A DNA stretch of 64,000 bases, taken from contig BGKB01000044.1 of assembly GCA_003116975.1 (NCBI GenBank), positions 756,940-820,939 on the forward strand, read 5' to 3'. This document shows positions 14,594 through 57,783 of this stretch, piece by piece; within the stretch, counting starts at the first letter, position 1, and the number at the start of each line of letters is the position of its first letter. Under the pieces are notes generated by a model that had not been told where the DNA came from, did not search any database, and saw nothing but the letters and a program-made list of their open reading frames with translations. This DNA comes from Aurantiochytrium sp. KH105. Its lineage: Eukaryota; Sar; Bigyra; Thraustochytrida; Thraustochytriidae. The position numbers and the translations under genes are program-made.

Positions 14594-17500
14594 ATGGAGG
14601 GCTCCGCGACGCTGCAGGCGCAGCTGGAGGAGTGTTTTGGCACGGACTCGCTGGCGTCCCTGACGCTCGAGGACGTGAGCGACAGGGACGAAGAGTACGC
14701 GGCGTGTCTCAACGCGAGCGGTCTGGTTTCGTACGAAGTTGAGGAGGATTTTTACTTTTCCGTGCCCAGCGAAGACAGCACCTGGGACGACCTTTACGAA
14801 AATGCACAAAACAAAGTGCCCCAGGTGAACTCGTCGAGCCCGTGCGGGTCAGACCCCGACAACGTGAGCGCAGAATGTTGCGCCGGCGTCAGCGCGGCCC
14901 TCACGTGCGAGCTGTCCCCGAACTCGAAAATGTCGAGCGACTGCAAAAAGATGCTCGACGAGGTCGTCTTTGACACGTACAAGTGCTCGTCTGAACTTAA
15001 AGAGTACGCGGCCTTAATCGGGGTTCTGGGCGCTCTCGTGCTGACGGCAATCGTTTCGCTCACGGTACTACGACATCGAGCCTTTGGCGCACTCTTGCGC
15101 AAGAACGTGATTCTCTGGAGGCAGCGATTCTTTGCGACACTCGCCTCCCAAGTCTTTGCCTTGGTCCTGGTCGGCGCTCTTGCCGGCGTGCTGCTCGGAC
15201 TCACAAGCATGGAGACCACATACTATGACATTGAGCTCTTGGGCCTGACGCTGGCGTTCACCACGCCAGACGAGAATCGCAAGCTCATTTACCAAAATCT
15301 GCGCCCCTTTGGCGGCCTCTTCTTGCTCATCACCTTTACGTATCCCGTGGCCAACATGACGGTCTCACTCGTGGCCGAAAAACAGACCCGTATGAAGGAA
15401 GCCCTGCGCATCTCGGGCATGCGCGATTGGATGCAAATGAGCACCTGGCTCATTACCTTTTTGTTAAAGTTTTTGCCCATGATTGTGGGCTGCGCCGTGC
15501 TCGCGCACTATGGCGCCGTGTTTCCGAATGAGAATGTACCGACGCTCGCGCTCTTCTTTTTCGCTTTTGTCTTTGCCATGGCAGGATTTTCGTTCCTGGT
15601 GACCGTGTTTTTTGGCAAGACACGGCCAGCAGCCATTGCCAGCGTCTGCGTCTCCTTTTTGATCTTCTTTTCCTCGTTTCACTTTTTGAACCAGGACAGC
15701 ATTGAGGCGCAGCGCAACGGGTGTTATCTCGCGCCCGTGTGTCTGGCGCTGGTCGTCAACACGATGCTCGACGATGCCTCGCTGGGAACGGGCTTTGCGC
15801 GGGCCGCCTCGCTCTTTGCCACGAACCAACTCGAGGATCTCATTCAGATTGAAGAGGCCTCGCGCCGTCTCGTGCTCGCCGGTTTCTTGTACCTGATTGC
15901 CGCATGGTATCTCGACAAGGTCGTGCCCCAAGAGTTTGGCGTGCGCGAGCGTCCTGACTTTGTCTTGAGGCCTCTATACTATTGGGTTCCAAGGCTTTGG
16001 GCGATGAGTCGCAGTGCTTGTCGTTGGCTGTCTCAAAGGTGTTCGAGAGCCAGCTTCCGGGAGCACAGTGCTTCCACTTTGGCAGATAAGGAAGTCTTCG
16101 GGCGCGAGGGTCCGGCAGAGTCTCTTTCCGATACGGAGACCGCTTCAAGCGCGGACGTCGTGGTGATTCAAGTTCCTACAGGTGAGATGTCAGAGGTAAA
16201 CCGGGCGTACGCCGATGCAAGCCGCGTGGCCATCAGAAATGTTTCCAAGGAATACCGCATCAATGGGCTGCGCGGGAAGCGCAAAGCGGTGAACGATCTT
16301 TCTCTGTCCTTTGAAAAGGATCAAGTCACTGTGCTCCTGGGTCCCAACGGAGCAGGCAAGAGCACACTGATCAAGATGCTTACGGGCATGGTACAGCCGT
16401 CAGGAGGAGACATTTCCGTCTTTGGGCTCTCGATCCGCTCAGATATGCAGACAATCCGCGGCCGCTTGGGTTGGTGCCCGCAGCACGACATCTTGTACCC
16501 TTCTCTGACGGTGCATCAACACTTGCACTTGTTTTCGGCGCTGCGAGGCAAACGACTCGACAAGGACGCGACGCACGATCTCTTGCTTGAGCTTGAGCTC
16601 TCGGACAAGCTGCATGCCAAGGCGCGAACCCTCAGTGGAGGTCAACGTCGCAAGCTATGTCTGGCGATTGCGCTCATCGGCGATACGGACATTATCGTCC
16701 TCGACGAAATGACCGCAGGTGTGGACCCTGTATCGCGACGAGCATGTTGGAGCGTCATTCAGAACAATCGCGTGGGGCGCGCCATCCTGCTTACGACGCA
16801 CTTTCTTGACGAGGCAGACGTGCTGGGGGACAAGATTGCCATAATTGCAAATGGCTCGCTGTGCTGCGAGGGCAACTCTTTGGAGCTTAAGCGCAAATAC
16901 GGCGATGGGTATCGGCTTACCGTAGGACTTCCCAAGTCGCCTCAAGAAAGGGAAAGCATGCCGGCCTCTGGAGTCGACGTCTTGCCTTCCGCGCCTCTGG
17001 GGATTGCCAACAATGCTGAGACGGTGACACCACAGCGCGTGGCCGCGGTCGTTCACGAGGAAGTGGCCGGTGCCACGATTGTGGACCAGAGCGCAAGCGA
17101 TAATGGCCTGGGGAGGGATGCGCGGGAGTTGCACTTTGGCCTCCCGTTTTCGAGCATGTCGTCTTTTCCAGGTCTTTTGCGGCGTCTCGAGACCGAGCTG
17201 TCGTGCACGTTGTCGATTTCCATTTCGACGCTGGAGCAAGTTTTCGTCAAGGTGGCGGCGCAGCACACAGAGGAGGATTTAAGTCTTGAACGTCTTCGCG
17301 CCGTCAAGCCGTACGAAGCCAAGAATGGACGGCGCAAGCGACGTGCGTTTTGGGCTCTCCTCATGGTGAAACGTTTGAACATTGCGCGGCGAGACGCGCG
17401 TGCATTCTGTTTGTTGATCTTGTTGCCCGTGCTTTTTTGCTGCGCTCTGCTACTCATTCCGGATTTGTATTTGTACACGTTGATTTACTCTGGCGATGGG

Positions 17501-20323
17501 GTCAAGGCACCGCAGGGCACCGCAGCATGTGAAGCAATGATCCCAAGTGGTTCGCTAGGTTGGGCAGACACCAATTCGACCCCGGCAGAATACTCTTCTG
17601 TCGCGGGTGCGCACGTGAACACGACGGGGCGCACGTGTTGTCCACAGGTGAACTCGACGACGGCGACGGTGCTGCAAACGACGCAATTTGAGCAATGCTT
17701 GGAGAGTCTTCCGCAGTGCGTAAACGTGCAAGATGCTGAACGCGAGCAGCGAAACTGTTTCGTGCATACATATAGCTATTGCTACGCGCTGCCGTGGTTA
17801 TGCAAGGCGAGCGAATGCTGTGATCCGCGTTCGTACAAGTCACCGTATTACCTGTGTCAATCGGCGACGGCGCTGGATCCAATTTACCTTTTTAGCGATT
17901 CGGAAGAGTCGAACTTGAACATGTACTGTAACACGCGAGAGATTGCGGTTACGCAAGAATACGTGAATGCCTTTGTGCGCACAATTGTGGTGTTTTTGGG
18001 CTTTGTGTTCCCGCCAGGGTCGGTCATCGCCTTTGCAGTGCTGGAGACGGAGGCAAATCGCGAGACGAAATTCCAGCAGCTCGTGAATGGAGTGGGCAAG
18101 GCAACATACTGGGGTGCGCACTGGGTGTTTGACCAAGCGACGACGGCTCTGCCCGTGGTGGCATTGCCCGTGGTGTTGCTGTTGACATCGGACGTGAATT
18201 CCATGAATTACACGGGAATGGTGGTGGCACAATCGGCGCAAGTCACGGCGGCCTTTGTATTTGCGTGCGTGCCGCTGGCGTATGCAATGAGTTTTTCGTT
18301 TCGCCGGCACGCAGATGCCCTCGTGTGGATGGTGATTGTTCACATTGTCACGGGTGGGGCACTTTCGGTGCTGGCGTATGTTCTCAAGGTTGTCCCGCTG
18401 GCGGTGGGTGGTCTCAGCACCAAGGATATTATCGACGATTATGCGCGCTACGTACTCTTGCTGTTCCCGGGTTATGCCTTTGCAGACGGCCTTTTGCGTG
18501 CACAAACGCAGATTGTGGACGACTGTGCGTCGAGTGACCCTTGGCGAAATCTGGGACGATGCACGAATCTGTTGGCGAACTTTGTCGACGGCGCTGCAGA
18601 ATCACAAGTAAACGCGGCGCTGGCGAATGTTACGGATATGACAACCGTGGAGGGAGATTATACGCCAAACAGGGACGAAGTCTTTTTGAACATTATATAT
18701 CTGTGCGGCGTCGCCTTTGCGTGTTGGGTATATCTCACGCTGCGAGAGCTCAAGGTTTTGCGAGGTGGATTCTGGTGCTCGTGCTTGCGTCGCGATGAGG
18801 TTGTGGCGGCCCATCGACGAAAATGTGCGAGCAGAGCTCGAGCACACACAGACGGCGTTGTGGCAACCTTGTCGGCAAATGCTGTGACGAGCACCAATGC
18901 AGATTCTCTTCTGTCGTCGTCGTCGTCATCGTCATCGTCGTCCCCATTGGCGGTGGCTCGCGAGGTGAGCGAGCGATTGCTGGTGCAATGGGGTGCCGCA
19001 GATGTTGTCGCTGAGCGCGCAAGAGTGCAAGCCGGTGACCTTGGAGGCGCGCACGAAGCGGACGCGGTGCAGTTTCTTGGTCTCCGCAAGGAATACAAGG
19101 GGAACGGAAACAAGGTTGCGTTAGATGACCTCTGGCTGGGCGTTGGCCGCGGTGAGGTGTTTGGCTATCTTGGCGTGAATGGAGCAGGCAAAAGTACGAC
19201 AATCAAGTTGTTGACGGGAGCGGAAGCGCCCACTCGTGGTTCAGCAACAGTTCTAGGACATAGCATCCGCACACAGCTTGGGGCAGCGCGGCGCTCGCTC
19301 GGGTACTGCCCGCAGCATGAGGCCTTGTACGAGCTCTTGACGGTTCGAGAGCACCTGAAGATGTACGCAATGATTCGTGGTCTCCCCGAGTGGCGCGAGG
19401 CGGTGCAAAGCGGCGTGGAGCGCATGCAGCTGAAGCGGTTTGAGCATGTGGTTGCCAAGCAGCTGTCTGGGGGCAACAAGCGCAAGCTCTCGGCTGCGAT
19501 TGCAATGTTAGGTTCGCCAGAGGTAATCGTGCTCGATGAGCCGACAAGTGGGGTGGATGCGCTCTCGCAGCGGTTCATGTGGGACGTGGTTCGCGACACG
19601 ACGCAGCGCACGCGGTCCGCGGTCCTACTGGTAAGCCATAGCATGCCCGAGGTGGAGGCATTGAGCACGCGCATTGGCGTTTTGATTGGCGGCCGTCTCC
19701 GTGCGCTGGGGACCTCGTCGGAGCTCAAGGCGCAGTATGGCTCGACGATGGTCGTGGAGGTGACGCTTGCCCAGGCAACGGGTCAGCTCGCGCCGCCGAC
19801 AAGGCTGCTTCGGGACGACTACGTGTATCCATCGCAGCTGCGTGCGATTTGCGAGGCGCTGGGCGCGGCATCCCGTTGCGAGGCGCTCCAGCAAGGCGGG
19901 CGCGCCTGCTCGAGTCCGGTGGGTTTTGCTTTGAACACGGCCGAGGTGGGTCGCGTTTCGTGGCTCGAGTTTGAGCGCTGGTGGTTGCAAGAGGACGCTG
20001 TGGAGGGTCTGCAGCGGGTCTTGCGCAGGGCGTGGGGCCCGCGTCAGACAGGTGTCTCTTCCTCTTCGTCGACAACGACAACGAAGGAGGTCTCGACATC
20101 AAGAGCAAAGGATTCGACTCCAGGGCTGGATTCTGGCGTCGAGCTCGTGGACCGTCACGGCCAGCACCTTGTCTTTTCGGTGCCTCGAGGTGCGGTTCCT
20201 GTGGCGGACATTTTCGAGTTCCTCGAGCGCAGGCAGCACGCGCTGGGCATCGTCTCGTACTCTGTGTCCACGGCGGGGCTCGAGGCCGTCTTCAAGAGCG
20301 TCGTCGAGCACGCTTCCGCCTGA
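14594..20323 (+). CDS. full-size ABCA-family ABC transporter
   Basis: The 1909-residue protein has two membrane halves and two ATPases in the ABCA order and probably moves lipids. The start is an ATG in strong context (GCGACATGG). NBD1 has Walker A GPNGAGKS (583-590), signature LSGGQ (680-684) and Walker B IIVLDEMTAG (about 699). NBD2 has Walker A GVNGAGKS (1527-1534), signature LSGGN (1624-1628) and Walker B VIVLDEPTSG (about 1643). In TMD1 a cluster of hydrophobic segments follows RKNVILWRQRFF, a typical ABCA start. TMD2 has a large Cys- and Asn-glycosylation-rich loop (about 970-1120). Before the usual first helix there is an extra segment of about 140 residues, Cys-rich, ending in a hydrophobic stretch (YAALIGVLGALVLTAIVSL). 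NBD1 has DEMTAG where DEPTSG is usual. No intron is visible. Confidence 0.95.
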   Translation: MEGSATLQAQLEECFGTDSLASLTLEDVSDRDEEYAACLNASGLVSYEVEEDFYFSVPSEDSTWDDLYENAQNKVPQVNSSSPCGSDPDNVSAECCAGVSAALTCELSPNSKMSSDCKKMLDEVVFDTYKCSSELKEYAALIGVLGALVLTAIVSLTVLRHRAFGALLRKNVILWRQRFFATLASQVFALVLVGALAGVLLGLTSMETTYYDIELLGLTLAFTTPDENRKLIYQNLRPFGGLFLLITFTYPVANMTVSLVAEKQTRMKEALRISGMRDWMQMSTWLITFLLKFLPMIVGCAVLAHYGAVFPNENVPTLALFFFAFVFAMAGFSFLVTVFFGKTRPAAIASVCVSFLIFFSSFHFLNQDSIEAQRNGCYLAPVCLALVVNTMLDDASLGTGFARAASLFATNQLEDLIQIEEASRRLVLAGFLYLIAAWYLDKVVPQEFGVRERPDFVLRPLYYWVPRLWAMSRSACRWLSQRCSRASFREHSASTLADKEVFGREGPAESLSDTETASSADVVVIQVPTGEMSEVNRAYADASRVAIRNVSKEYRINGLRGKRKAVNDLSLSFEKDQVTVLLGPNGAGKSTLIKMLTGMVQPSGGDISVFGLSIRSDMQTIRGRLGWCPQHDILYPSLTVHQHLHLFSALRGKRLDKDATHDLLLELELSDKLHAKARTLSGGQRRKLCLAIALIGDTDIIVLDEMTAGVDPVSRRACWSVIQNNRVGRAILLTTHFLDEADVLGDKIAIIANGSLCCEGNSLELKRKYGDGYRLTVGLPKSPQERESMPASGVDVLPSAPLGIANNAETVTPQRVAAVVHEEVAGATIVDQSASDNGLGRDARELHFGLPFSSMSSFPGLLRRLETELSCTLSISISTLEQVFVKVAAQHTEEDLSLERLRAVKPYEAKNGRRKRRAFWALLMVKRLNIARRDARAFCLLILLPVLFCCALLLIPDLYLYTLIYSGDGVKAPQGTAACEAMIPSGSLGWADTNSTPAEYSSVAGAHVNTTGRTCCPQVNSTTATVLQTTQFEQCLESLPQCVNVQDAEREQRNCFVHTYSYCYALPWLCKASECCDPRSYKSPYYLCQSATALDPIYLFSDSEESNLNMYCNTREIAVTQEYVNAFVRTIVVFLGFVFPPGSVIAFAVLETEANRETKFQQLVNGVGKATYWGAHWVFDQATTALPVVALPVVLLLTSDVNSMNYTGMVVAQSAQVTAAFVFACVPLAYAMSFSFRRHADALVWMVIVHIVTGGALSVLAYVLKVVPLAVGGLSTKDIIDDYARYVLLLFPGYAFADGLLRAQTQIVDDCASSDPWRNLGRCTNLLANFVDGAAESQVNAALANVTDMTTVEGDYTPNRDEVFLNIIYLCGVAFACWVYLTLRELKVLRGGFWCSCLRRDEVVAAHRRKCASRARAHTDGVVATLSANAVTSTNADSLLSSSSSSSSSSPLAVAREVSERLLVQWGAADVVAERARVQAGDLGGAHEADAVQFLGLRKEYKGNGNKVALDDLWLGVGRGEVFGYLGVNGAGKSTTIKLLTGAEAPTRGSATVLGHSIRTQLGAARRSLGYCPQHEALYELLTVREHLKMYAMIRGLPEWREAVQSGVERMQLKRFEHVVAKQLSGGNKRKLSAAIAMLGSPEVIVLDEPTSGVDALSQRFMWDVVRDTTQRTRSAVLLVSHSMPEVEALSTRIGVLIGGRLRALGTSSELKAQYGSTMVVEVTLAQATGQLAPPTRLLRDDYVYPSQLRAICEALGAASRCEALQQGGRACSSPVGFALNTAEVGRVSWLEFERWWLQEDAVEGLQRVLRRAWGPRQTGVSSSSSTTTTKEVSTSRAKDSTPGLDSGVELVDRHGQHLVFSVPRGAVPVADIFEFLERRQHALGIVSYSVSTAGLEAVFKSVVEHASA

Positions 20324-33026: not shown

Positions 33027-36000
33027 TCAATTGCGACGGATAACGTGCGCGAAATCGTTGAGCGTCGAAGTCCACGTCGACAACGCCTCCTGGATGAGCT
33101 CCTTGAAACGCTCCGCAGCTTCCTCTTCGGAGGCGTCGAGCATGAGACGATCGCGTACCCAATCAATGTCCGACTCGCGCTGCAACTCGGGCATCCCGCT
33201 CGAAAGCATGAGCGAAAAAAGAGTAATGAGCAAACTCGCATTACGCCGCAAAATGTTGTACGCTTGGCCGCAAAGCGCCTCGAACTCCTTAAACAACGGA
33301 CGATCCTGCGGACCCAGGACCGTAGCCATCGCGTTTGAAAACAGAAAAGGACCACGCTCTCGCTTGATGCCCATCTTCGACTTGAAATTGCCCAAAAAGT
33401 GCCCAAAGTCAATGTGAAAAAGCTTACCATCACGCGTGAGCATAATGTTGTCCGCGTGTCGGTCGCCAATACCCAGCACATACGTCGCAACGCAGTACCC
33501 CGCGCACGAGCACTTAAAGTTCTGCTCTGTCACACGCCGTGCATAGCCCGAATTCTGCAGATACCGTTTCAGCTTCTTGTCGTCAAACACCTTGACGGCC
33601 TTGCTCAGCTTTCCGCCCGTCCGACCCGCCGTGATTCGCGCAATCGTCTCCGCATTCGGCACAATCTGAATCATACCGCGCTGATCACCCGTCGACACGA
33701 CGCTATACAAGGACAGCCGCAAATCCAAGCCCTCCGTTTTCCACAGCTTGTCCATCGTGCGCAAAACCTGCAGCGTAAGCTGATCCTGGCGCAGATCATC
33801 GCCAGACTTGTACAACACAGACACGGGGGGCGCACCGGGACGCGCCTGCAAACACTCGAGCAGTAGCGGCGCCTTCTTCGAGTTCATCACGCGGCACTTT
33901 TTCACATCCAGCCCGCGAAAGAATAGATAGGGCGACAGCGGCAGCTGAAACTCCTCCGGGAGCGTCGCGGACGCCAGCTGCTGCTTCAAGAACGTCGTGC
34001 GCCGGTTCGGTTTCTCCTCCTTTACCGCCGCCGCAATCGACTCCAGCTTGCTGTTCACAAACTGCTGGTGACCCAGGTCCTGGCGAACGCGGCAGTGCCG
34101 CAGATACGTGTCCAACAGCGCGCCGTAGCGGTCAGCAATGTAATCCTCGTGCATCTCGGCCTTGAGCAGCCAAAACAGACGGTGCCCAATCAGCGATGGC
34201 GCGCGCAGCGCACGTCGCAGCAGAAAACGAGATAGCGCAGAGTCCACAAAACGCTCGAACTTGAGCACTTGCACGAGCTGAAGCATGATCTCCTCCAAAC
34301 TCACGTCAGAAAGCGGCTCCAGCGCAGATACGGCCAGGGCGCGCACTTTCGGATCAGGGTGCTTGAAGTCCAGCAACTGCAGGGCCACCATCGGGTCTGG
34401 CATGGCCCATTCGTTCAACATGCGGTACGCCAGCTGCATCTGCGAGCGCTTCGACCAGTCGATCGCCTGCAAAAACTTTGGCAGCGCCTTCGGGTCCTCC
34501 ATGAGTTCACGCCGCATCTGCAAAATCAATTCCTTTTGCTCCTTGCTCAGCGGATGCAACGGGTCTCTGTGAATAAATGTGCTGAGTTCCGCGCGCATAA
34601 GTCGATACAGGTTTGAACGTGGCGCCGCGTCCGGCTCCTCTGCATCCCGCTGCACGTTGTCGCTCATGTAGTCACTGTAAACGACCGGCTTGCCCCGCGA
34701 CGGCAGCTCGAGCTCCAAAAAGTCGACTGCGTCCTTTGCACGCGTGTTGTTGCTCAGAAGCGTCGCCACACCCGCCATGTCGGATCCCGCTTCCCCGCGA
34801 AAGAGCTTCAAACGCAAATGCCCCGACCGCATCACCTGCTCAAAATCGAAGAGAGTCAGACCGGCCCACCCGATGGGTGTCGCCGAGCCCTCCTCGACGA
34901 GTCGCTCAATCTCCATGTGCCGCCGCCGCTGTCGCTCCCGTCGCTGTCGCTGTTGGATACGCTTGCGCACCGCTGACGTCCGCTTGACGCTGTCGCGATC
35001 ACCGCTGTTTTCCTCGTCGTCCTCCTCCTCTTCGCGCGTGTGGCGTTTTTCGCGCTGACGCTGCTCTTCCTCGAGCTGCGCACGCAGCTTGGCCTGCTCG
35101 TCCTTGATGGCCTCAAACAAGTCATGCGCCTCGTCCGCCTTGGGCGAGTAGTACACGTTGAAGATCACACGAGCCGCACGAGGGAGGTTCGAGAGCTTGA
35201 TGTCCAGCGTAACCTTCGAGTTGAATGGCACGATCATGTACGGCATGAGTCGCTCTGCCGTGCGCTCCAGGTATCGAGCCGGAGCCAGTTGCTGTCCTGC
35301 GTGGTAAATCGCGCACGACACGATGAACGAATCTGAAAGAACATGGCCCGGCAGACTCGTGCCGAGTACGCGCTTGACATTGATCGTCAGCGAGTCGTCA
35401 AGCTGCCAGATCGGGAGATAGTGCTCGAGGGAAAAGTCATTAAGTTGCTCGGCGCGCTTTTGTGCGAGCGTCGCACTCATCTGCTCGCTCACAGACGCAA
35501 TCACATCTTGGTCCTCCTCGGAAAAGGGCGCACCACCGCGCTTATTCAAAAGCTCAATCACTGTGATCACCGTTCCGTCATTGGTGCACACCGGGCAGCA
35601 CAACACGTTGCGCGTCACAAAACCCGAGTCTTCCGACTCTACCTCGCCGTAAAAGTGCTCATTCTTGTGCACGTGTGGCACATTCACAATCTTGTTAATC
35701 GCCGCGCAATGGCCCGCAATGCCCTGGCCAATGTCCAGCTTGATTGTTCTCTTTCGCGCCTTGGCCCCCGCGCCACTGCCAAACTGCATTTCTAACTGAC
35801 GCTTCTCCCAGTCCACCGTGTACAAGGAAACGCGTTCGCAGTTGAAGATCTGAAAGAGGACTTTACGCATGCGCGCAACGGTGTCTGCCACGTTCAGCTC
35901 GGGGCTAAAGGCCGTCATGAGCAGCATGAGGGCTTCCGCCACACGCCGCTCTCTCTCTGTGTTGGCGCGCCGCTTCAGCGAGAGCAGGACATCAAAGTTG

Positions 36001-37172
36001 CCCACGTGCTTGGTGAAGCTTGCGACCTCGAGACTCATGTGGGACAGCTGCGTATTGGACGTGGTCATGAGCTCTTCAGGCTTGATGACCTGACGAAAGA
36101 CGTCACTCGAGAGGGTATACGTAGACACGTGCGTCAGCGCCATTACCGTCGCTGTCCGGGTCTTATCCTCGAGAAGCGCCTTTTCGCCGAAAAAGTCGCC
36201 CCTGCTCAGCTCGTTGACGAGCTTGCCAAAGGCGTTGTCCTCGGGCAGAATACCTTGGTCCTCTGTCCACGCACCAGCAACATAGACGCGGACTTTGCCC
36301 TCGACAATCAGGTAAAACAGCTCGCCCTTGGTGTCCTGCCGCACGATGACCTCGTTGGGCACAAAGGTTTGCTTGCGCATCGACTTGCGCACCAGCTCAA
36401 ATTGCTCATTATCCAGGTTGTGAAAGAGCGGCACCGACTTGAGAAAGGAGTCGACCGTGGGGGCGGTCGTCCGGATGGAGCTGCGAAAGGCCACGCGCCC
36501 AAACGAGTTCTCCAAATACCGTGTGACTCCCTTTTCGCGTGCGCGAGGTTGCGCCCTGTTCGAGGGTAGGCGCTCGCTCTCGCCTCGCAAGTGGGCCAGA
36601 CGTTGCGAACGCGCCTCTACGGTTTCCTCAATCTGGTTCTCCATCATTTCCATGCGCGAGATCTCGTCCGAGACGTCGTGAATCCGGCTCTGCAGCAGAC
36701 GCGCGTACCGTTCGACATCCTCATGCTCCTGCGAAGAGCGAACCTGCTCGATGCGGTAGTCGGCGCCACGTGGCTTACGCCACACCGCCATGCCTGGCGA
36801 ATGCCAAAATGCCATGTTACGAGTCGGATCGAACGCCGGGACAAAGCCCATGTAGTCTTTGCGCTCTCCGCTCATGCCGAGCGCATCGTGCGAGTAGGGA
36901 TGGATTGCAAGGTGTCGAAAGTCTTCCTCTTCGTAATCAGGGGGCTCGGCATATGTGCTCTGCTGTCGCAGCAGGTTAAAGTAGTAGATGCGATCAGAGG
37001 CTGCATCGCGCGCCTTGTGCCACTTGTCCGCAGGCAGCTTCCACACGCTCAGGCCGGTCACCACGTTGTGGTAAAACTGCAGGCCTGTTCTCTCGTCCGT
37101 GTGCGGCTGCCAGACTCCGCCGCCAAGCCCGTCGTCGGCGCACGGCGAGTTGGCCTGAAAACTGCTTTCCAT
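33027..37172 (-). CDS. PI3-kinase with WW, cyclic-nucleotide-binding and GAF domains
   Basis: I start this 1381-residue protein at the ATG at 37172 (MESSFQANSP); the open frame upstream is Arg/Ala-rich noise. Order: WW1 (W21...W44, P47), WW2 (W51...P77), a charged coiled coil (about 145-200), a cyclic-nucleotide-binding domain (about 240-362) with cassette GDFFGEKALLEDKTRTATV, a GAF domain (about 427-567, GQGIAGHCA, VIELLNKRGGAPFS), C2 (about 581-870) split by a charged insert (about 677-745), the PI3K helical domain (about 870-1030) and the kinase domain (about 1080-1381). The kinase has SGDDLRQDQLTLQ, GDRHADNIML, IDFGHFLG and activation loop GIKRERGPF, the KRER type of class I enzymes, which make PIP3. 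No p85-binding or Ras-binding domain is seen. It presumably converts PIP2 to PIP3 at membranes, gated by cyclic nucleotide (inference). Confidence 0.93.
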   Translation of the reverse strand: MESSFQANSPCADDGLGGGVWQPHTDERTGLQFYHNVVTGLSVWKLPADKWHKARDAASDRIYYFNLLRQQSTYAEPPDYEEEDFRHLAIHPYSHDALGMSGERKDYMGFVPAFDPTRNMAFWHSPGMAVWRKPRGADYRIEQVRSSQEHEDVERYARLLQSRIHDVSDEISRMEMMENQIEETVEARSQRLAHLRGESERLPSNRAQPRAREKGVTRYLENSFGRVAFRSSIRTTAPTVDSFLKSVPLFHNLDNEQFELVRKSMRKQTFVPNEVIVRQDTKGELFYLIVEGKVRVYVAGAWTEDQGILPEDNAFGKLVNELSRGDFFGEKALLEDKTRTATVMALTHVSTYTLSSDVFRQVIKPEELMTTSNTQLSHMSLEVASFTKHVGNFDVLLSLKRRANTERERRVAEALMLLMTAFSPELNVADTVARMRKVLFQIFNCERVSLYTVDWEKRQLEMQFGSGAGAKARKRTIKLDIGQGIAGHCAAINKIVNVPHVHKNEHFYGEVESEDSGFVTRNVLCCPVCTNDGTVITVIELLNKRGGAPFSEEDQDVIASVSEQMSATLAQKRAEQLNDFSLEHYLPIWQLDDSLTINVKRVLGTSLPGHVLSDSFIVSCAIYHAGQQLAPARYLERTAERLMPYMIVPFNSKVTLDIKLSNLPRAARVIFNVYYSPKADEAHDLFEAIKDEQAKLRAQLEEEQRQREKRHTREEEEDDEENSGDRDSVKRTSAVRKRIQQRQRRERQRRRHMEIERLVEEGSATPIGWAGLTLFDFEQVMRSGHLRLKLFRGEAGSDMAGVATLLSNNTRAKDAVDFLELELPSRGKPVVYSDYMSDNVQRDAEEPDAAPRSNLYRLMRAELSTFIHRDPLHPLSKEQKELILQMRRELMEDPKALPKFLQAIDWSKRSQMQLAYRMLNEWAMPDPMVALQLLDFKHPDPKVRALAVSALEPLSDVSLEEIMLQLVQVLKFERFVDSALSRFLLRRALRAPSLIGHRLFWLLKAEMHEDYIADRYGALLDTYLRHCRVRQDLGHQQFVNSKLESIAAAVKEEKPNRRTTFLKQQLASATLPEEFQLPLSPYLFFRGLDVKKCRVMNSKKAPLLLECLQARPGAPPVSVLYKSGDDLRQDQLTLQVLRTMDKLWKTEGLDLRLSLYSVVSTGDQRGMIQIVPNAETIARITAGRTGGKLSKAVKVFDDKKLKRYLQNSGYARRVTEQNFKCSCAGYCVATYVLGIGDRHADNIMLTRDGKLFHIDFGHFLGNFKSKMGIKRERGPFLFSNAMATVLGPQDRPLFKEFEALCGQAYNILRRNASLLITLFSLMLSSGMPELQRESDIDWVRDRLMLDASEEEAAERFKELIQEALSTWTSTLNDFAHVIRRN

Positions 37173-40958: not shown

Positions 40959-42448
40959 GGAAATGCGCACGCACCAGCACGCAGAACGTGAAGGGCGGCA
41001 GCCTGTCATTTTCCCTCGGGGCGGGGTGGCGTTTCTCGCGCTGGGAGACCGAACTCGACGAATGTGAGGTGAGGCCCAGCCGCCGCTGCCGACGATGCCG
41101 GCGACGCCGGGATGCCGAATGGCGCTGCGGATTCGCTGACCAAGGGAGTCTTGAGCGAGCCAGGCAGTCGGCCGAGAGCCACCGACCAGCAGCGACCGAC
41201 CGACCGACCGACCGACTGAACGAACGAACAATGTTGGTTGATGATGGTATGGGCCGCAGGGGTCTTGCTTGTGTCATGGCGTCTGGTGTGGTGGGCATGG
41301 CGGGCTGAGCTGACGAGTGGGCTGGCTGGCTGGCGCGATGGTTCGGGGTGGATGGATGTGCGGCGGATGCAGGGACGTGACTCGGGTGCGGTGGGTCGCG
41401 AAAAGCTTGTACAAGCCCGGCTCCAGTGCCGAGAGAGAGTGGTGTATCGTTAAATTCTAGAAAGCCTCAGCAGTGTGCTCCCGTAGGCTACGGCTCACTG
41501 TGGCCGATCGATGCCAAGACACCTACTAGTATCTCATGGGAGTATTGCGAGGCCAACTCGAACGCTGGAAGCGTGGGGTGATGTGAGATGACGTGTGGTG
41601 TCATTGGATGTCATGTGATGTGACTTGTTGCAAGGAGATAAAGTATTCTGATTGAGTAATCCGCGGATAATTCTTGGCTCATCTCGGGGACGGAGGGGAT
41701 GAGAACTCGCGTCGGCTGTCCTTCACTTTGGACATCTTTCCATGCCATTCGGGAGTGTTCATGAAAAGCATCGAGAGTGGCACGAACGTAAATAGAGGCA
41801 GGAAAGATAACCAAAACAATGACGGCAACTGCGAAGCGAAATTGATTGGCGCTGCTTCAAGCGAGAAGTCTCTTTCTCTCTCTGCCTTTTACTCCGACAG
41901 ACGTGACTTTCCATTCAACAGACCCAACTGTCGTCGTTGGCGGCTGCTGTTGTGACAATTGCTCATTCGCTGTCAAGTACCAGCAAACATCTCCGATTTT
42001 GCGATCGGTTCACAGTGAGTCCGCTATTCGCCTTCTTCATCATCCACCAGAGACGCATCAAGCCTCAACATCTTTCCTCAACCAAGATTTGGGCCAACTT
42101 TTCCCAAGTCTTGTCGCGTCAACTCCTGTCCTCGCTCCGTGCCCTCGAGACTTGGGCCTCGCCACGTTGACGGAGGCCAAGGCTTCGTTCGCCTGTTCCA
42201 CTCTCGCACACCTCCTCCTCCTCGGCCCTCCTGCCATTAGCCATTGGCCATTATGCCCTTGTGCCATTATGCCATTGTGCAGTCGCATCAGTGCTTGGCT
42301 CTCCGAGAGGCCTCTCTGAAGAGTGAGCGATAAGGCTGCCGCTGCAGCTGCTGCTGCTGCTGCTGCTGCTGCTGCAGTCGAGCTTGCGCGGCTTCGTCGC
42401 GGCGAGGCGGCACGCAGGCGGGCGCGCAGAGCCCTGGCGGAGGGGACG
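39475..42448. other. 3-kb spacer between divergent genes
   Basis: This separates the SYLF gene (minus) from the Sam50 gene (plus). Frames at 39471-40271 and 40013-40924 are Arg/Ala/Ser-rich and motif-free, so I reject them. Contents: ACGC arrays (39550-39580 and 40926-40960), a GGCT array (39731-39755), TTC-rich runs (40330-40400), a GACC array (41197-41216) and a GATGT/TGTGATG-rich section (41577-41625). The last 130 bases include a GCT run just before the Sam50 start. Confidence 0.55.
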
Positions 42449-43897
42449 ATGATGGGGCACGCGGAAGACGGGGCGGCGGAGGCCGGCGCAGCGGGCCAGT
42501 ACGTCGGGCTGAATGACCCGATCTTCTCCGTGCCGCTGCGCATCAGGCGCGTGAACGTCGTGGGCCTCTCGCGGACGAGGCGCAGCGTGATCGACGCGGA
42601 GCTCGCCGAGGCGCGGCGCGGGCGCACCGTGCGCGAGGTGAGCACCGGGATCATGAACGCGCTCAAATCGCTCAAGGAGGTGGACTCCTTCGAGTTCGTC
42701 GAGGTCTACTGCGACGTGGCTGCCAACAGGCGCAAGAAACGTGGACGCCCCGGCCAGGCAGAACTCACCGACATCACCGTCAAGGTCCGCGAAAAGCGCA
42801 TGGTGCAACTCAAGGCCGAAACGTACGTCCAGGGAACCGGCACGGAAGGCGGCGTCGAGACGGCGCTCTCACTCAATAATCCCGTCGGATACACGGAGAA
42901 AATCAACGCCGCGTGGTCCTACGGAACCAAGAGCAGCGCCTCGGCGCGCCTCGAGGTGCAAAAGCCGCGCTTCCGTGGCCTCAACGCCTCACTCGATGTC
43001 TCTGCGTCACATAGCACCGTCAGTCGCGCCATTTACTCGTCCTATGACGAAAAGATCCAAGGAGCCCAGGCGGTCTTGCGTCACAACAGCGGACGACACG
43101 AAATTGGTGCTGGGTGCTTTTGGCGCGACGTCATGCCCGTGCGGAGTGCCAGCAATCAGTACGAGTTTGCTGCCTCGGGGCTCATTTTGGCGCAGGCCAA
43201 ACCCAGCCTCAAGAACAGCATCTTTTACACCTTCACGCAGGATCGCCGGGACAACCCTTTTGGGCCTTCCCGGGGTTCGTTTCTGCAGCTTCGTACCGAG
43301 TTTGCGGGCATGGGCGGTGACGCTCATTTTGCCAAAGGCGAGGTCAAGGTGCAGCAGTTCCTCCCGCTCTTTGCCGACGTCATCTCGGGCATCGCGCTTG
43401 GCTTCACCTTTCAGGCAGGCGCTTTATGCCCGCTCGCCACACCGCGTAGCGCCTCACCCGACAAGTTGCCTGGTGTCGGCGCAAGCACTCACATTTGCGA
43501 TCGCTTCTGGCTCGGTGGCCCTCTCGATCTGCGTGGCTTCAATCACAAGGGCGCAGGGCCTCGCACCTCGCCGAACCGGCCTGGCGCCCAGGGCGGAGAC
43601 TCTCTTGGTGGCGATGTGACCTGGCGTCTCGGTACGAACCTCACGCTTCCCTTTCCGCACGGACTCTTGCACGCTGCGGGCGTCCGTTGCCACCTTTACG
43701 CCAACGCTGGCAATCTTTGCGCGTGGGAAACCTCGTTTCGCTCTCTCGTGCACGGCATGCGCGCTGCCGTGGGTGCCGGTATTGTCTTTCCTACTGCTGT
43801 TGGTCGCATTGAGGCCAACTACTCCTTTGTGCTTCGTGCCAACTCGCGCGACCAGCAAAAGCGCTTCCAGCTAGGTCTGGGCGTTGACTTTACCTAA
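42449..43897 (+). CDS. SAM50: Sam50/Tob55-like mitochondrial outer-membrane beta-barrel assembly protein
   Basis: This Omp85-family protein should insert beta-barrel proteins into the mitochondrial outer membrane as the core of the SAM complex. I start it at the ATG at 42449 (MMGHAEDGAA), giving 482 residues. The frame is open back to 42323, but that stretch begins at GTG and is poly-Ala/Arg. A POTRA-like region (IRRVNVVGLSRTRRSVIDAE, VREKRMVQLKAETYVQG) is followed by a barrel of alternating hydrophobic strands. Diagnostic motifs are QDRRDNPFGPSRGSFLQL, FWLGGPLDLRGF (the Omp85 L6 RGF motif) and a C-terminal strand FQLGLGVDFT that fits the beta-signal. The length matches Sam50 (about 470). A plastid Omp85 is less likely because only one POTRA is present. 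Confidence 0.93.
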   Translation: MMGHAEDGAAEAGAAGQYVGLNDPIFSVPLRIRRVNVVGLSRTRRSVIDAELAEARRGRTVREVSTGIMNALKSLKEVDSFEFVEVYCDVAANRRKKRGRPGQAELTDITVKVREKRMVQLKAETYVQGTGTEGGVETALSLNNPVGYTEKINAAWSYGTKSSASARLEVQKPRFRGLNASLDVSASHSTVSRAIYSSYDEKIQGAQAVLRHNSGRHEIGAGCFWRDVMPVRSASNQYEFAASGLILAQAKPSLKNSIFYTFTQDRRDNPFGPSRGSFLQLRTEFAGMGGDAHFAKGEVKVQQFLPLFADVISGIALGFTFQAGALCPLATPRSASPDKLPGVGASTHICDRFWLGGPLDLRGFNHKGAGPRTSPNRPGAQGGDSLGGDVTWRLGTNLTLPFPHGLLHAAGVRCHLYANAGNLCAWETSFRSLVHGMRAAVGAGIVFPTAVGRIEANYSFVLRANSRDQQKRFQLGLGVDFT

Positions 43898-44384: not shown

Positions 44385-45527
44385 TTAAAAATGAACGCCC
44401 CTTTCCTCAACACTTCTAGCATCATTGCGATTTTGTTCATTTGCCCTTGCTCGGACTACGCTTGCCAACAGACCGGCCACGCCGGGAGGAAGACCTCTTT
44501 GTGCCCTTGCACCATTTGTCGATCGACTTGCGCGCGTCCCTCGATTCCTGCTACTGTCATCGTGAACCTCGCTTGGGGGGCGACTTGGTTGTCGCAAGCG
44601 CTCGGGAATGTCAATACGCATCTCCATCAAATAACCGAGCTCGTTGTCATCTACAGAGGCGCCGGCTGGGACGCCGGCCTCCAAGTCTTCGGGCGCACTA
44701 GCATCCTCATCACGCTGCGCAGATTCATCTTGCGCAGGTTCTCGTCTTCGTCGTTGAACTTGCGCAGCAAAGCCCTCTTCGATACGCCGCTGAGCCACAA
44801 CCTCGTCGGACACGAGGGTCGGCGGGAACCCTCTGCCAGCCACAAAGGCAACGCAGCACCATTGCAGAGCACAAAAGCTAAGATACGGCGTGATCCAGTC
44901 GAGGGCACCAACGACAAAAAGCACGCCTGCGATCGTCCCTATTGCGTGCACCATGGTGACTGGACGCTGCGCCACAGCCGAGTAAAAAATGACCACTAGA
45001 GCCGATACGCACGGGGCCGGGACCCGAATAAAACTCATGACCGTGATTTGAGAGGTCTCCTCGAGGTACGGCAAGACGAAGCGCGCCATGAGCAGCGCAA
45101 AGACAACTGCCGACATTCCATGCCACGACCACGTCTGGCTCGGGCGCACGCCGGGTCCACGCGAAGAATCGAAATGCGCGTACCCGAGATGCAAAGCCGC
45201 AATGATGAGAATAAAGTGGAAGAGAAGGCGAGCGTAAGCGGCGGGGCCAATCCACTGCTCCACATCCCGCGAGTCCCAGACGAGAAGTACGGACACAATG
45301 AGATGGATTGGGTCCTTGTGCGCAAGAGGCGCCACCAGCACCCTCCAGAACTCGCGCCGCTGGACCACCTCCTTATAGCTGCATGCGACCATATCGACCG
45401 AGGCGCCAAGTACGTTGAAGAATACCGTAATTGCTATCAACACCGTCACCAGTGCCGCTGTCACTGGCGGCAGCGAAGGTTCTGCCCACCATGGTTCCCA
45501 CGCCGCGTCGTCGGCGGCCTCGAGCAT
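44385..45527 (-). CDS. rhomboid-family intramembrane protease
   Basis: The 380-residue protein has about six hydrophobic segments within residues 20-235. Rhomboid features appear in order: REFWRVLVAPLAHKDPIHLI (the conserved first-loop region), HGMSAVVFALL with the candidate nucleophile Ser139 in GMSA (usually GxSG), and VHAIGTIAGVL with candidate His194 in the H-x-x-G-x-x-x-G pattern. Both members of the Ser-His dyad are thus kept, so activity is plausible, although the Gly after Ser is replaced by Ala. After the membrane part there is a 145-residue cytosolic tail rich in Arg, Glu and Ser, with EDLEAGVPAGASVDDNELGY. There is no mitochondrial presequence, so a secretory-pathway location is more likely (inference). 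The start is the ATG at 45527. Confidence 0.82.
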   Translation of the reverse strand: MLEAADDAAWEPWWAEPSLPPVTAALVTVLIAITVFFNVLGASVDMVACSYKEVVQRREFWRVLVAPLAHKDPIHLIVSVLLVWDSRDVEQWIGPAAYARLLFHFILIIAALHLGYAHFDSSRGPGVRPSQTWSWHGMSAVVFALLMARFVLPYLEETSQITVMSFIRVPAPCVSALVVIFYSAVAQRPVTMVHAIGTIAGVLFVVGALDWITPYLSFCALQWCCVAFVAGRGFPPTLVSDEVVAQRRIEEGFAAQVQRRRREPAQDESAQRDEDASAPEDLEAGVPAGASVDDNELGYLMEMRIDIPERLRQPSRPPSEVHDDSSRNRGTRASRSTNGARAQRGLPPGVAGLLASVVRARANEQNRNDARSVEERGVHF

Positions 45528-56787: not shown

Positions 56788-57783
56788 ATGGAGGGCGACC
56801 GGGAAGCCATGCTGCAGGTCATCCTCGAAAGGCATGGGGATCTGATCTCCGACAGCGAGGAGGAAGACGCCATCGTAGGCTTGCAAGACGTCGATGTCCT
56901 AAGCGACGGTAGCGGTCTCACCTCTGAGGCTTCCAGCAATGGAGAAGAAGAAGACGATGATGACGAGGAAGACGACGATGACGATGACGAAAGCGAGGAC
57001 TTGTCGTCCGAAAGCGAAGCAGAAGCGGAGGAGGACGAAAATGCTGCTCTCATTCCGCAGAATGATCCAGGCGAACCTATTGGCGCGGGCTGGGCACGGT
57101 ACATGGACCCCAACTCTGGTTACGAGTACTATTTCAACCATGTCTCGGGAGCCTCGCAGTGGTTTCGACCGCAGCTCTCGCGAAGCGCAGCTGTCCAGCC
57201 AATCCCGTCCGGCGCCAGCGTTACGCCAAAGCGCAGACGAGGACGATCGACGCCTTCAAAATCTGATATAGAGTGGAACCAGAACCTCGATGACTCGGAC
57301 GCGAGCTCCAACAGCGGAGACGACGGCCAAAGTGACGACGAGGACATCGAAGCTGACGAGGATAGTGACTTGATTCGGGGCAAAGATGATGTTGTACGCG
57401 CCGTCAATTTTTACGTGTGGTCGAGCATCTTCCATATCGTTTGTATCGAAGGACCGGCAGTCGCTTTTGAAGCCTTTTTCCGAGGCTTGTATCTCGTTTT
57501 CATGGGATTCGTCTTGTCTCTCGCGCAACAGCCATACGAGCTTGGCCGTGGACGTTTGAAGCAGGGTCTGCACATGCTAGTAGCACTTCCTCTTCTTCTC
57601 GTGCCAGGCTCTTTGCTCCTTGCGTACAAGGACCTGCTCTATGCATGGCGCGACGGACGGCTCGCGCGTAGCGCACATGTTGACGACTGGAGACTTGGTG
57701 CACTTCCGACTCTTGCGGGCCCTCTTAAAGCCGACGCATTCCATGTCGTCCAGCTCGGTCAAGGTGCGCACGCAAGAAAGTGA
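56788..57783 (+). CDS. WW-domain protein with C-terminal membrane segments
   Basis: The 331-residue protein starts at an ATG in good context (GACGATGG). Residues 55-85 are almost all Asp/Glu/Ser. A canonical WW domain spans W102 to P128 (WARYMDPNSGYEYYFNHVSG, then W125) with the expected aromatic triplet and 22-residue spacing between the two Trp. WW domains bind Pro-rich ligands. A second acidic stretch (about 165-200) follows, then hydrophobic segments at about 205-250 (VNFYVWSSIFHIVCIEGPAV and beyond) and 265-290 (LHMLVALPLLLVPGSLLLAY), likely membrane helices. No signal peptide is seen, so the WW part should face the cytosol. I know no family with this order. Confidence 0.85.
   Translation: MEGDREAMLQVILERHGDLISDSEEEDAIVGLQDVDVLSDGSGLTSEASSNGEEEDDDDEEDDDDDDESEDLSSESEAEAEEDENAALIPQNDPGEPIGAGWARYMDPNSGYEYYFNHVSGASQWFRPQLSRSAAVQPIPSGASVTPKRRRGRSTPSKSDIEWNQNLDDSDASSNSGDDGQSDDEDIEADEDSDLIRGKDDVVRAVNFYVWSSIFHIVCIEGPAVAFEAFFRGLYLVFMGFVLSLAQQPYELGRGRLKQGLHMLVALPLLLVPGSLLLAYKDLLYAWRDGRLARSAHVDDWRLGALPTLAGPLKADAFHVVQLGQGAHARK

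Follow-up and report, generated by a model that had tools for sequence, protein, structure and literature searches.

Can a cyclic nucleotide set the rate of PIP3 synthesis directly, within a single polypeptide? In animals, cyclic nucleotides reach PIP3 via intermediates, e.g. PKA, Epac and scaffolds. The question is raised by one gene in a 64,000-nucleotide stretch of DNA from the thraustochytrid Aurantiochytrium sp. KH105 (the window), in which an earlier note, made from the letters alone, described a PI3-kinase fused to WW, cyclic-nucleotide-binding (cNBD) and GAF domains. In this report, we present evidence that the product of the gene is probably (with a probability of roughly 0.6) a class I-type PI3-kinase in a single chain, which would make PIP3 and be gated by cyclic nucleotides.

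The gene occupies the minus strand, which had been left unnamed before, and its frame runs unbroken from 37172 to 33027 (1381 codons and a stop), in agreement with the coordinates first given. The domain search proposed at that time was performed with Pfam profiles at the curated whole-protein cut-off of each family, and every named domain family exceeds its cut-off. From the N- to the C-terminus, the order is WW-WW, possible coil, cNBD, GAF, C2, PIK and kinase (Table 1).

Table 1. Features of the PI3-kinase fusion gene and its product (window positions).
Feature	Position	Strand	Details
PI3-kinase fusion gene (P0001)	33027..37172	(-)	ATG at 37172, stop ends 33027; 1381 aa
WW domain 1	37032..37112	(-)	residues 21-47; Pfam PF00397
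WW domain 2	36939..37022	(-)	residues about 51-78; weaker PF00397 stretch, boundaries read off sequence
Possible coiled coil	36531..36749	(-)	residues about 142-214; weak matches and sequence character
cNBD	36081..36371	(-)	residues 268-364; PF00027 (cNMP_binding) E=1.7e-16
Phosphate-binding cassette FGEKALLEDKTRTATV	36144..36191	(-)	residues 328-343 (G329, E330, R339, T340)
GAF domain	35469..35882	(-)	residues 431-568; PF01590 E=5.6e-11
NK.....F...DQ, altered NKFDE motif	35508..35546	(-)	residues 543-555
PI3K C2 domain, first half	35127..35333	(-)	residues 614-682, with LPRAAR; PF00792
Charged insert within C2 domain	34878..35105	(-)	residues about 690-765
PI3K C2 domain, second half	34785..34880	(-)	residues about 765-796; second 2enq stretch, PF00792 two stretches
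PIK (helical) domain	34089..34601	(-)	residues 858-1028; PF00613 (PI3Ka) E=1.6e-50
PI3-kinase catalytic domain	33180..33824	(-)	residues 1117-1331; PF00454 (PI3_PI4_kinase) E=4.9e-55
Activation loop FKSKMGIKRER	33354..33386	(-)	residues 1263-1273, p110-beta-like

A second copy of the gene is present on another contig (C108:75174-79319), with colinear flanks. Over 1382 aligned codons the copies are separated by no indel, and both keep the frame open; they differ at 83 codons synonymously and at 16 non-synonymously (dN/dS 0.054), the differing sites falling on codon positions 1/2/3 in the proportion 13/3/85. This dominance of third positions continues across the domain junctions and linkers, with 2 synonymous and 0 non-synonymous differences between cNBD and GAF and 5 and 1, respectively, between GAF and C2. 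The second copy is under purifying selection, in its domains and junctions alike. Because indels between the copies do occur outside the frame, upstream of the ATG and downstream of the stop, the start at 37172 is supported as well. The rival notion that the assembly or a gene model falsely joined two genes into one frame draws on the fact that the case is made from DNA. It is nonetheless barely credible, given that the same chain recurs between colinear flanks on a second contig, that no indel interrupts it, and that the linker differences are mostly at third positions. Since the second copy lacks indels and dN/dS is 0.054, the fusion is one constrained gene; as far as DNA shows, chance is excluded, and so is an assembly join, as the earlier note had held.

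The catalytic half of the protein has the C2-PIK-kinase core of class I PI3-kinases, and the three motifs on which the first description of a class I-like core was based are all in place (DRHADN at 1237-1242, DFG at 1255-1257 and KRER at 1270-1273). All 28 PDB sequences that match the kinase at E<=1e-110 are p110 chains, the best being p110-beta (E=1.1e-126), whereas a Vps34-like frame from the same genome, used as a control, matches class III in 14 of 14 PDB sequences at E<=1e-60; the core resembles class I more closely than class III. No class II enzyme is among the matches listed, and the assignment to class I instead of class II is made from match rank and the activation loop. That loop, NFKSKMGIKRER, has the pattern NFKSKxGIKRER in common with NFKSKFGIKRER of p110-beta, and is of the basic KRER type found in class I. 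Such loops confer specificity for PI(4,5)P2. In the C2 domain, the PI3K_C2 profile begins to match at residue 614 (E=3.5e-13, two stretches), the first half matches the C2 of p110-alpha (2enq) weakly (E=0.0045), and of the 16 amino-acid changes that separate the copies, 4 lie in the charged insert.

Pfam at E<=1 matched no Ras-binding (PF00794) and no p85-binding (PF02192) domain in the protein, in a listing that is incomplete above about 0.1, where HMMER filters discard most matches; the earlier statement that neither is visible stands. In the genome, PF00794 has two matches, both in a paralogue and its copy, and the iSH2 and PF02192 searches gave no match, while their controls gave zero true positives. 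A hidden Ras-binding domain is supported neither by Pfam nor by the spacing of GAF and C2, which lie about 45 residues apart. The GAF and cNBD instead occupy the place of the Ras- and p85-binding domains of class I enzymes. The available text of PMC4617754 assigns a Ras-binding domain to both class I and class II; because none was detected here, the protein, class I-type in its core by sequence comparison, falls outside the canonical class I subunits.

The cNBD has among its structural relatives PKG, PKA-R, HCN, a Crp/Fnr regulator and a multi-cNBD chain (60 of 133 PDB matches listed). In its phosphate-binding cassette, G329, E330, R339 and T340 are spaced as Gly182, Glu183, Arg192 and Thr193 of PKG, residues whose roles have been described, the Thr favouring cGMP in PKG (PMC3080414). 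The cassette thus retains the Gly, Glu and Arg that mark a cyclic-nucleotide-binding domain, its RTA also occurs in the final cNBD of the PKG chain 4rz7, and FGEKALLEDKTRTATV is identical in the second copy. Among the genomic cNBDs found, the closest sit in a frame with three cNBDs and a protein kinase. From this complete cassette, we infer that the domain binds cGMP or cAMP.

The GAF domain is likewise of the cyclic-nucleotide type, judging by its closest relatives. Its best PDB matches are CyaB2 (4.8e-24) and PDE2A (1.1e-18), followed by PDE6/5/10 chains; a cyclic-nucleotide cyclase or phosphodiesterase accounts for the best 15 rows and for 19 of the 20 at E<1e-8, the exception being a metal-dependent phosphohydrolase (4mcw, 6.8e-11) in row 16. 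The best match in a whole-genome search was a GAF-GAF-cyclase frame, which was slightly outscored by one piece, on C76, among 11 GAF pieces that were fetched. Of the NKFDE motif, N, K, F and D are kept and E is replaced by Q; alanine at any of the five positions is reported, in the available text of PMC11977230, to abolish cGMP binding by PDE2 GAF-B. Of five contacts named for CyaB2 in PMC4411481, Arg291 alone is the same here; the remaining four differ, with conservative replacements at two.

At the N-terminus, the WW family matches in two stretches (Pfam, E=5.1e-9), of which the second is the weaker, counted because stretches were accepted up to E<=1, and has a Tyr in place of the second Trp. 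Residues from about 142 to 214 may form a coiled coil; among their weak matches, ZapB (E=0.023) is under its cut-off.

The genome encodes another class I-type PI3K, which has SH3 domains and cNBDs and retains its Ras-binding domain; its three SH3 stretches lie where the fusion protein has its WW domains and possible coil. The pairing of cNBD and PI3K is not a one-off within this genome. The cNBDs of the two enzymes may have diverged long ago. Close common ancestry is unsupported: the third cNBD of the paralogue ranks 29th among 45 hits to the fusion-protein cNBD at E<=1e-3, in a set of 60 pieces picked out of 154 cNBD matches, mostly one per gene pair, plus 3 paralogue segments (many short or weak matches were left out, and frameless pieces were dropped uncounted). 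Matches to a cyclase, a cyclic-nucleotide phosphodiesterase and a PTEN-type C2 were also found in the genome, so that both messenger systems, cyclic nucleotides and PIP3, are probably present. GTDB genomes and IMG/VR contained no relatives, as expected of a eukaryotic gene.

Given an intact cassette in the cNBD and a GAF of the cyclic-nucleotide type, we infer, and consider it sound to do so, that cAMP or cGMP switches PIP3 synthesis directly, as was suggested at the outset. The cNBD would take up cGMP or cAMP through its complete cassette. The GAF, standing before C2 in the position of the Ras-binding domain, would bind a second cyclic nucleotide or relay the signal, a role modelled on the GAFs of CyaB2 and PDE2. 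Together they would lift inhibition of the core, or carry it to the membrane, and so play the part held in animals by p85, Ras and G-beta-gamma, with the WW domains anchoring the enzyme to proline-rich partners.

Many GAF domains lack cyclic-nucleotide binding, as do some cNBDs. Both modules could thus serve in structure or dimerisation, or bind other ligands, leaving cyclic nucleotides inert and the kinase under the control of WW partners. The WW domains do offer such an alternative route, the NKFDE motif is incomplete, and there is the precedent of trypanosomatid PKA, whose cNBD, in the available text of PMC10959531, can bind nucleosides instead. In that protein, however, the cassette Arg is lost, whereas the present cNBD retains R339, in a cassette that is complete and the same in both copies. 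Further, CyaB2 GAF-B, in alignment with the GAF studied here, likewise departs from NKFDE, and yet is a known cAMP binder (PMC4411481). We therefore regard this account as unlikely, if deserving of attention. Still less likely is that cyclic nucleotides govern location, exposing the WW domains or the coil so that a constitutively active PI3K is moved to a scaffold or membrane. The WW domains and possible coil N-terminal to the cNBD, and the three SH3 stretches of the paralogue at the same place, are consistent with this idea, but with GAF and C2 about 45 residues apart, direct allosteric coupling fits better than a remote tether does.

If gating by cyclic nucleotides is correct, one enzyme both senses cyclic nucleotides and produces PIP3, which would be a regulatory logic new to PI3K; the Ras/p85 mode would then be one among several solutions, and a cyclic-nucleotide-controlled PI3K could be modelled on this natural example. 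The fusion suggests that two major signalling systems are wired together directly. A wider proposal, which we advance tentatively, is that this lineage has shifted control of PIP3 from Ras/p85 towards cyclic nucleotides: the window PI3K would sense them by two folds unrelated to each other, the cNBD and the GAF, with cGMP and/or cAMP as direct allosteric switches, and the two class I-type PI3Ks may have acquired their sensors separately.

In titles and the beginnings of abstracts of the CC-licensed PMC papers listed, we recognised no PI3K with a cNBD or GAF. The protein shares with class I p110-alpha/beta/gamma/delta the C2-PIK-kinase core, the NFKSKxGIKRER loop and LPRAAR in C2, but has WW-WW-cNBD-GAF instead of their p85- and Ras-binding domains, which were undetected in it. 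Philippon et al. (2015), in the available text, describe all non-opisthokont class I/II proteins as RBD, C2, PIK and kinase (PMC4617754). The order C2, PIK, kinase is common to those bikont enzymes and the fusion protein, which differs in its undetected RBD and its added WW, cNBD and GAF; the paralogue has the RBD, plus SH3 domains and cNBDs. Oomycetes, as far as the available portions of PMC5784254 and PMC3019232 go, possess GPCR-phospholipid-kinase and GPCR-cyclase fusions and cNMP- or WW-bearing protein kinases, including 8 protein kinases with cNMP-binding domains in Phytophthora infestans. The likeness lies in the readiness of stramenopiles to combine signalling modules within a single chain; those fusions, however, are PIPKs, cyclases or protein kinases, and no PI3K with such domains appears in those portions. 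CyaB2 and PDE2A also place a cyclic-nucleotide-type GAF N-terminal to an effector, but here the GAF is single, has NKFDQ rather than NKFDE, and precedes a PI3-kinase. PKG, finally, carries an RTA-cassette cNBD ahead of a kinase on the same chain; in the fusion protein, the cNBD is one rather than tandem, a GAF is added, and the output is that of a lipid kinase.

We found that the PI3-kinase frame of the minus strand, which runs from ATG to stop through 1381 codons without a break, encodes a catalytic core (C2, PIK and kinase domains) joined to WW domains, a cyclic-nucleotide-binding domain (cNBD) and a GAF domain. The earlier note had claimed this fusion, and a domain search of the protein (hmmscan against Pfam-A) bears it out: every listed family, the cNBD and GAF among them, exceeds its curated cut-off. 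A charged insert, about 75 residues long, interrupts the C2 domain. The two halves of C2 can each be recognised as p110-type, a likeness that is weak in a PDB sequence search (2enq, E=0.0045) but clear in Pfam.

Domains of the fusion protein and locations of the genes discussed
Feature	Location	Strand	Remarks
PI3-kinase fusion gene	window 37172 to 33027	-	
WW	N-terminal		two stretches, second weaker; Pfam
cNMP_binding	residues 268-364		Pfam
GAF	residues 431-568		Pfam
PI3K_C2	starts residue 614		Pfam, 3.5e-13
PI3Ka	residues 858-1028		Pfam
PI3_PI4_kinase	residues 1117-1331		Pfam
Partner copy of fusion gene	C108:75174-79319		
P0002, second class I-type PI3K	L010:1041-7901	+	C57, 2287 aa; copy on C162
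GAF-GAF-cyclase frame	L093:3-3584	-	C91; copy C79
ABCA-type transporter	window 14594-20323	+	1909 aa; two ABC_tran and two ABC2_membrane_3 stretches
Omp85-superfamily protein	window 42323-43897	+	
Rhomboid protein	window 44385-45527	-	
331-aa frame	window 56788-57783	+	one WW domain

The single reading frame, also noted previously, recurs in a second copy. In the whole genome (G000; 76 Mb, 367 contigs), 34 PI-kinase matches can be sorted into 17 pairs of like score and frame length, the fusion gene and its partner being one of them. The alignment of these two, 1382 codons long, contains no indel. Their codon differences are 83 synonymous and 16 non-synonymous (dS 0.094, dN 0.005, ratio 0.054), and nucleotide differences at codon positions 1, 2 and 3 number 13, 3 and 85. 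The linkers obey the same rule (cNBD-GAF, 2 synonymous and 0 non-synonymous; GAF-C2, 5 and 1), and the flanks are colinear, with indels 5' of the ATG and 3' of the stop, outside the frame. Therefore, in each copy the fusion chain is a single coding unit under constraint. Within the C2 insert this constraint is relaxed (2 synonymous, 4 non-synonymous). The copies may be alleles or homoeologues; the synonymous divergence of the pair, about 9%, is high for alleles and could reflect a hybrid or a long-diverged diploid.

The class I-like character proposed for the core is upheld by PDB ranking and by the activation loop. The top match of the protein is p110-beta (E=1.1e-126), and the best 60 of 248 PDB rows are class I. 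With the PIK-kinase part alone, p110 chains make up all 28 PDB sequences at E<=1e-110, whereas for a control from the same genome, a Vps34-like frame on C265, all 14 rows are class III. The activation loop, NFKSKMGIKRER, has one mismatch to that of p110-beta in these 12 positions; this loop determines preference for PI(4,5)P2. Among the matches listed there are no class II chains, and thus it is the ranking and the activation loop that separate class I from class II here. PMC4617754 dates that split to the ancestor of unikonts and assigns bikont proteins to a joint class I/II.

Consistent with the earlier reading, Pfam lists neither a Ras-binding nor a p85-binding domain for the fusion protein. 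About 45 residues separate the end of the GAF from the start of C2, so the GAF sits where p110 has its Ras-binding domain. Searches of G000 for p85 iSH2 and the p85-binding domain gave no match, but both lacked a true positive control, and their absence from the genome is thus unproved.

The best 60 of the 133 PDB rows for the cNBD are headed by 9ya0, a multi-cNBD chain, and otherwise consist of PKG, PKA regulatory subunits, HCN channels and a Crp/Fnr regulator. In the cassette of the cNBD, FGEKALLEDKTRTATV (residues 328-343), the Gly, Glu and Arg are conserved with the spacing of PKG, and Thr stands where PKG has Thr193. According to PMC3080414, this threonine confers cGMP selectivity in PKG I-beta, and the isolated domain prefers cGMP only twofold; because of this, either cGMP or cAMP may be the ligand of the cNBD. 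Of the cNBDs found in G000, the nearest lie in a frame with three cNBDs and a protein kinase, whose three cassettes read PRAA, not RTA. The genome holds a large set of cNBD matches (154, both copies counted), with several frames of more than 1600 aa carrying more than one.

For the GAF, the first 15 PDB rows are all a cyclic-nucleotide cyclase or phosphodiesterases, as are 19 of the 20 at E<1e-8 (CyaB2, 4.8e-24; PDE2A, 1.1e-18; then PDE6, PDE5 and PDE10), the sole exception being 4mcw, a phosphohydrolase (6.8e-11). The motif of the GAF, NK.....F...DQ, departs from NKFDE in one residue, Q in place of E; in PDE2 GAF-B, PMC11977230 reports, cGMP binding was lost when any one of the five was changed to alanine. 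When CyaB2 contacts from PMC4411481 were mapped by reading the PDB alignment, Arg291 was kept; Thr293, Ile308, Asp356 and Asn359 are replaced by Ser, Phe, Glu and Ser. The domain thus belongs to the cyclic-nucleotide type, and ligand binding is plausible. The best GAF match in the whole-genome search is the GAF-GAF-cyclase frame, a bacterial CyaB-like type within a eukaryotic genome; among 11 pieces compared of 23 matches, one on C76 scored slightly higher (71.6 vs 67.0 bits). The cNBD-GAF stretch has 56 matches in G000, none of which covers both domains except those in the fusion gene and its copy.

A PIK domain search gave 8 matches, of which the 6 over the cut-off are the fusion gene, Vps34 and a paralogue, P0002, each with its copy. 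In P0002, the PI3K_rbd (24.3 bits, cut-off 22), C2, PIK and kinase domains come with three stretches of SH3 and, at a per-stretch limit of E<=10, up to four of cNMP_binding; in its copy, the PIK, kinase, cNBD and RBD matches share one frame of 2313. The two cores are 47% identical (240/511 aligned positions), and the P0002 activation loop is FKSKYGVKRER. Its cNBD region has three FGE motifs: that at 882 lies in a canonical cassette, FGEIAVLASEPRSATV, that at 710 retains the Arg but loses the next small residue, and that at 587 has lost the Arg. These cNBDs are not the closest to that of the fusion protein, ranking 29th of 45 matches, which favours, without proving, separate acquisition by the two PI3Ks.

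With the architecture, constraint, and catalytic and cassette residues of the fusion protein in hand, we infer its ligand, direction of effect and product as follows. A cyclic nucleotide would bind the cNBD, and possibly the GAF too; the GAF, attached to C2, would relay the change to the C2-PIK-kinase core, taking the role of p85 and Ras, while the WW domains may act as a tether. Matches in G000 to cyclase domains (37, many weak), phosphodiesterases (25) and PTEN-type C2 (8), both copies counted, together with the cNBDs, make it probable that the organism has both the messengers and the phosphatase arm for PIP3. In Aurantiochytrium, a thraustochytrid, transcripts of an unspecified PI3K and of cAMP-dependent protein kinase rise early in cold stress, according to PMC4585886. 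The omega-3 PfaA model reached up to 930 bits in G000, under its cut-off of 1010; of the 14 bacterial controls, 11 also have weaker PfaA-type matches, all of them below the cut-off. This would fit a labyrinthulomycete, for example a thraustochytrid, and agrees with the mention of stramenopiles in the earlier note.

Searches of the CC-licensed PMC literature listed nothing recognisable as a cNBD- or GAF-bearing PI3K, and non-opisthokont class I/II proteins all share one domain composition, according to PMC4617754. The component families of the fusion protein are known; to the extent searched, their combination appears new.
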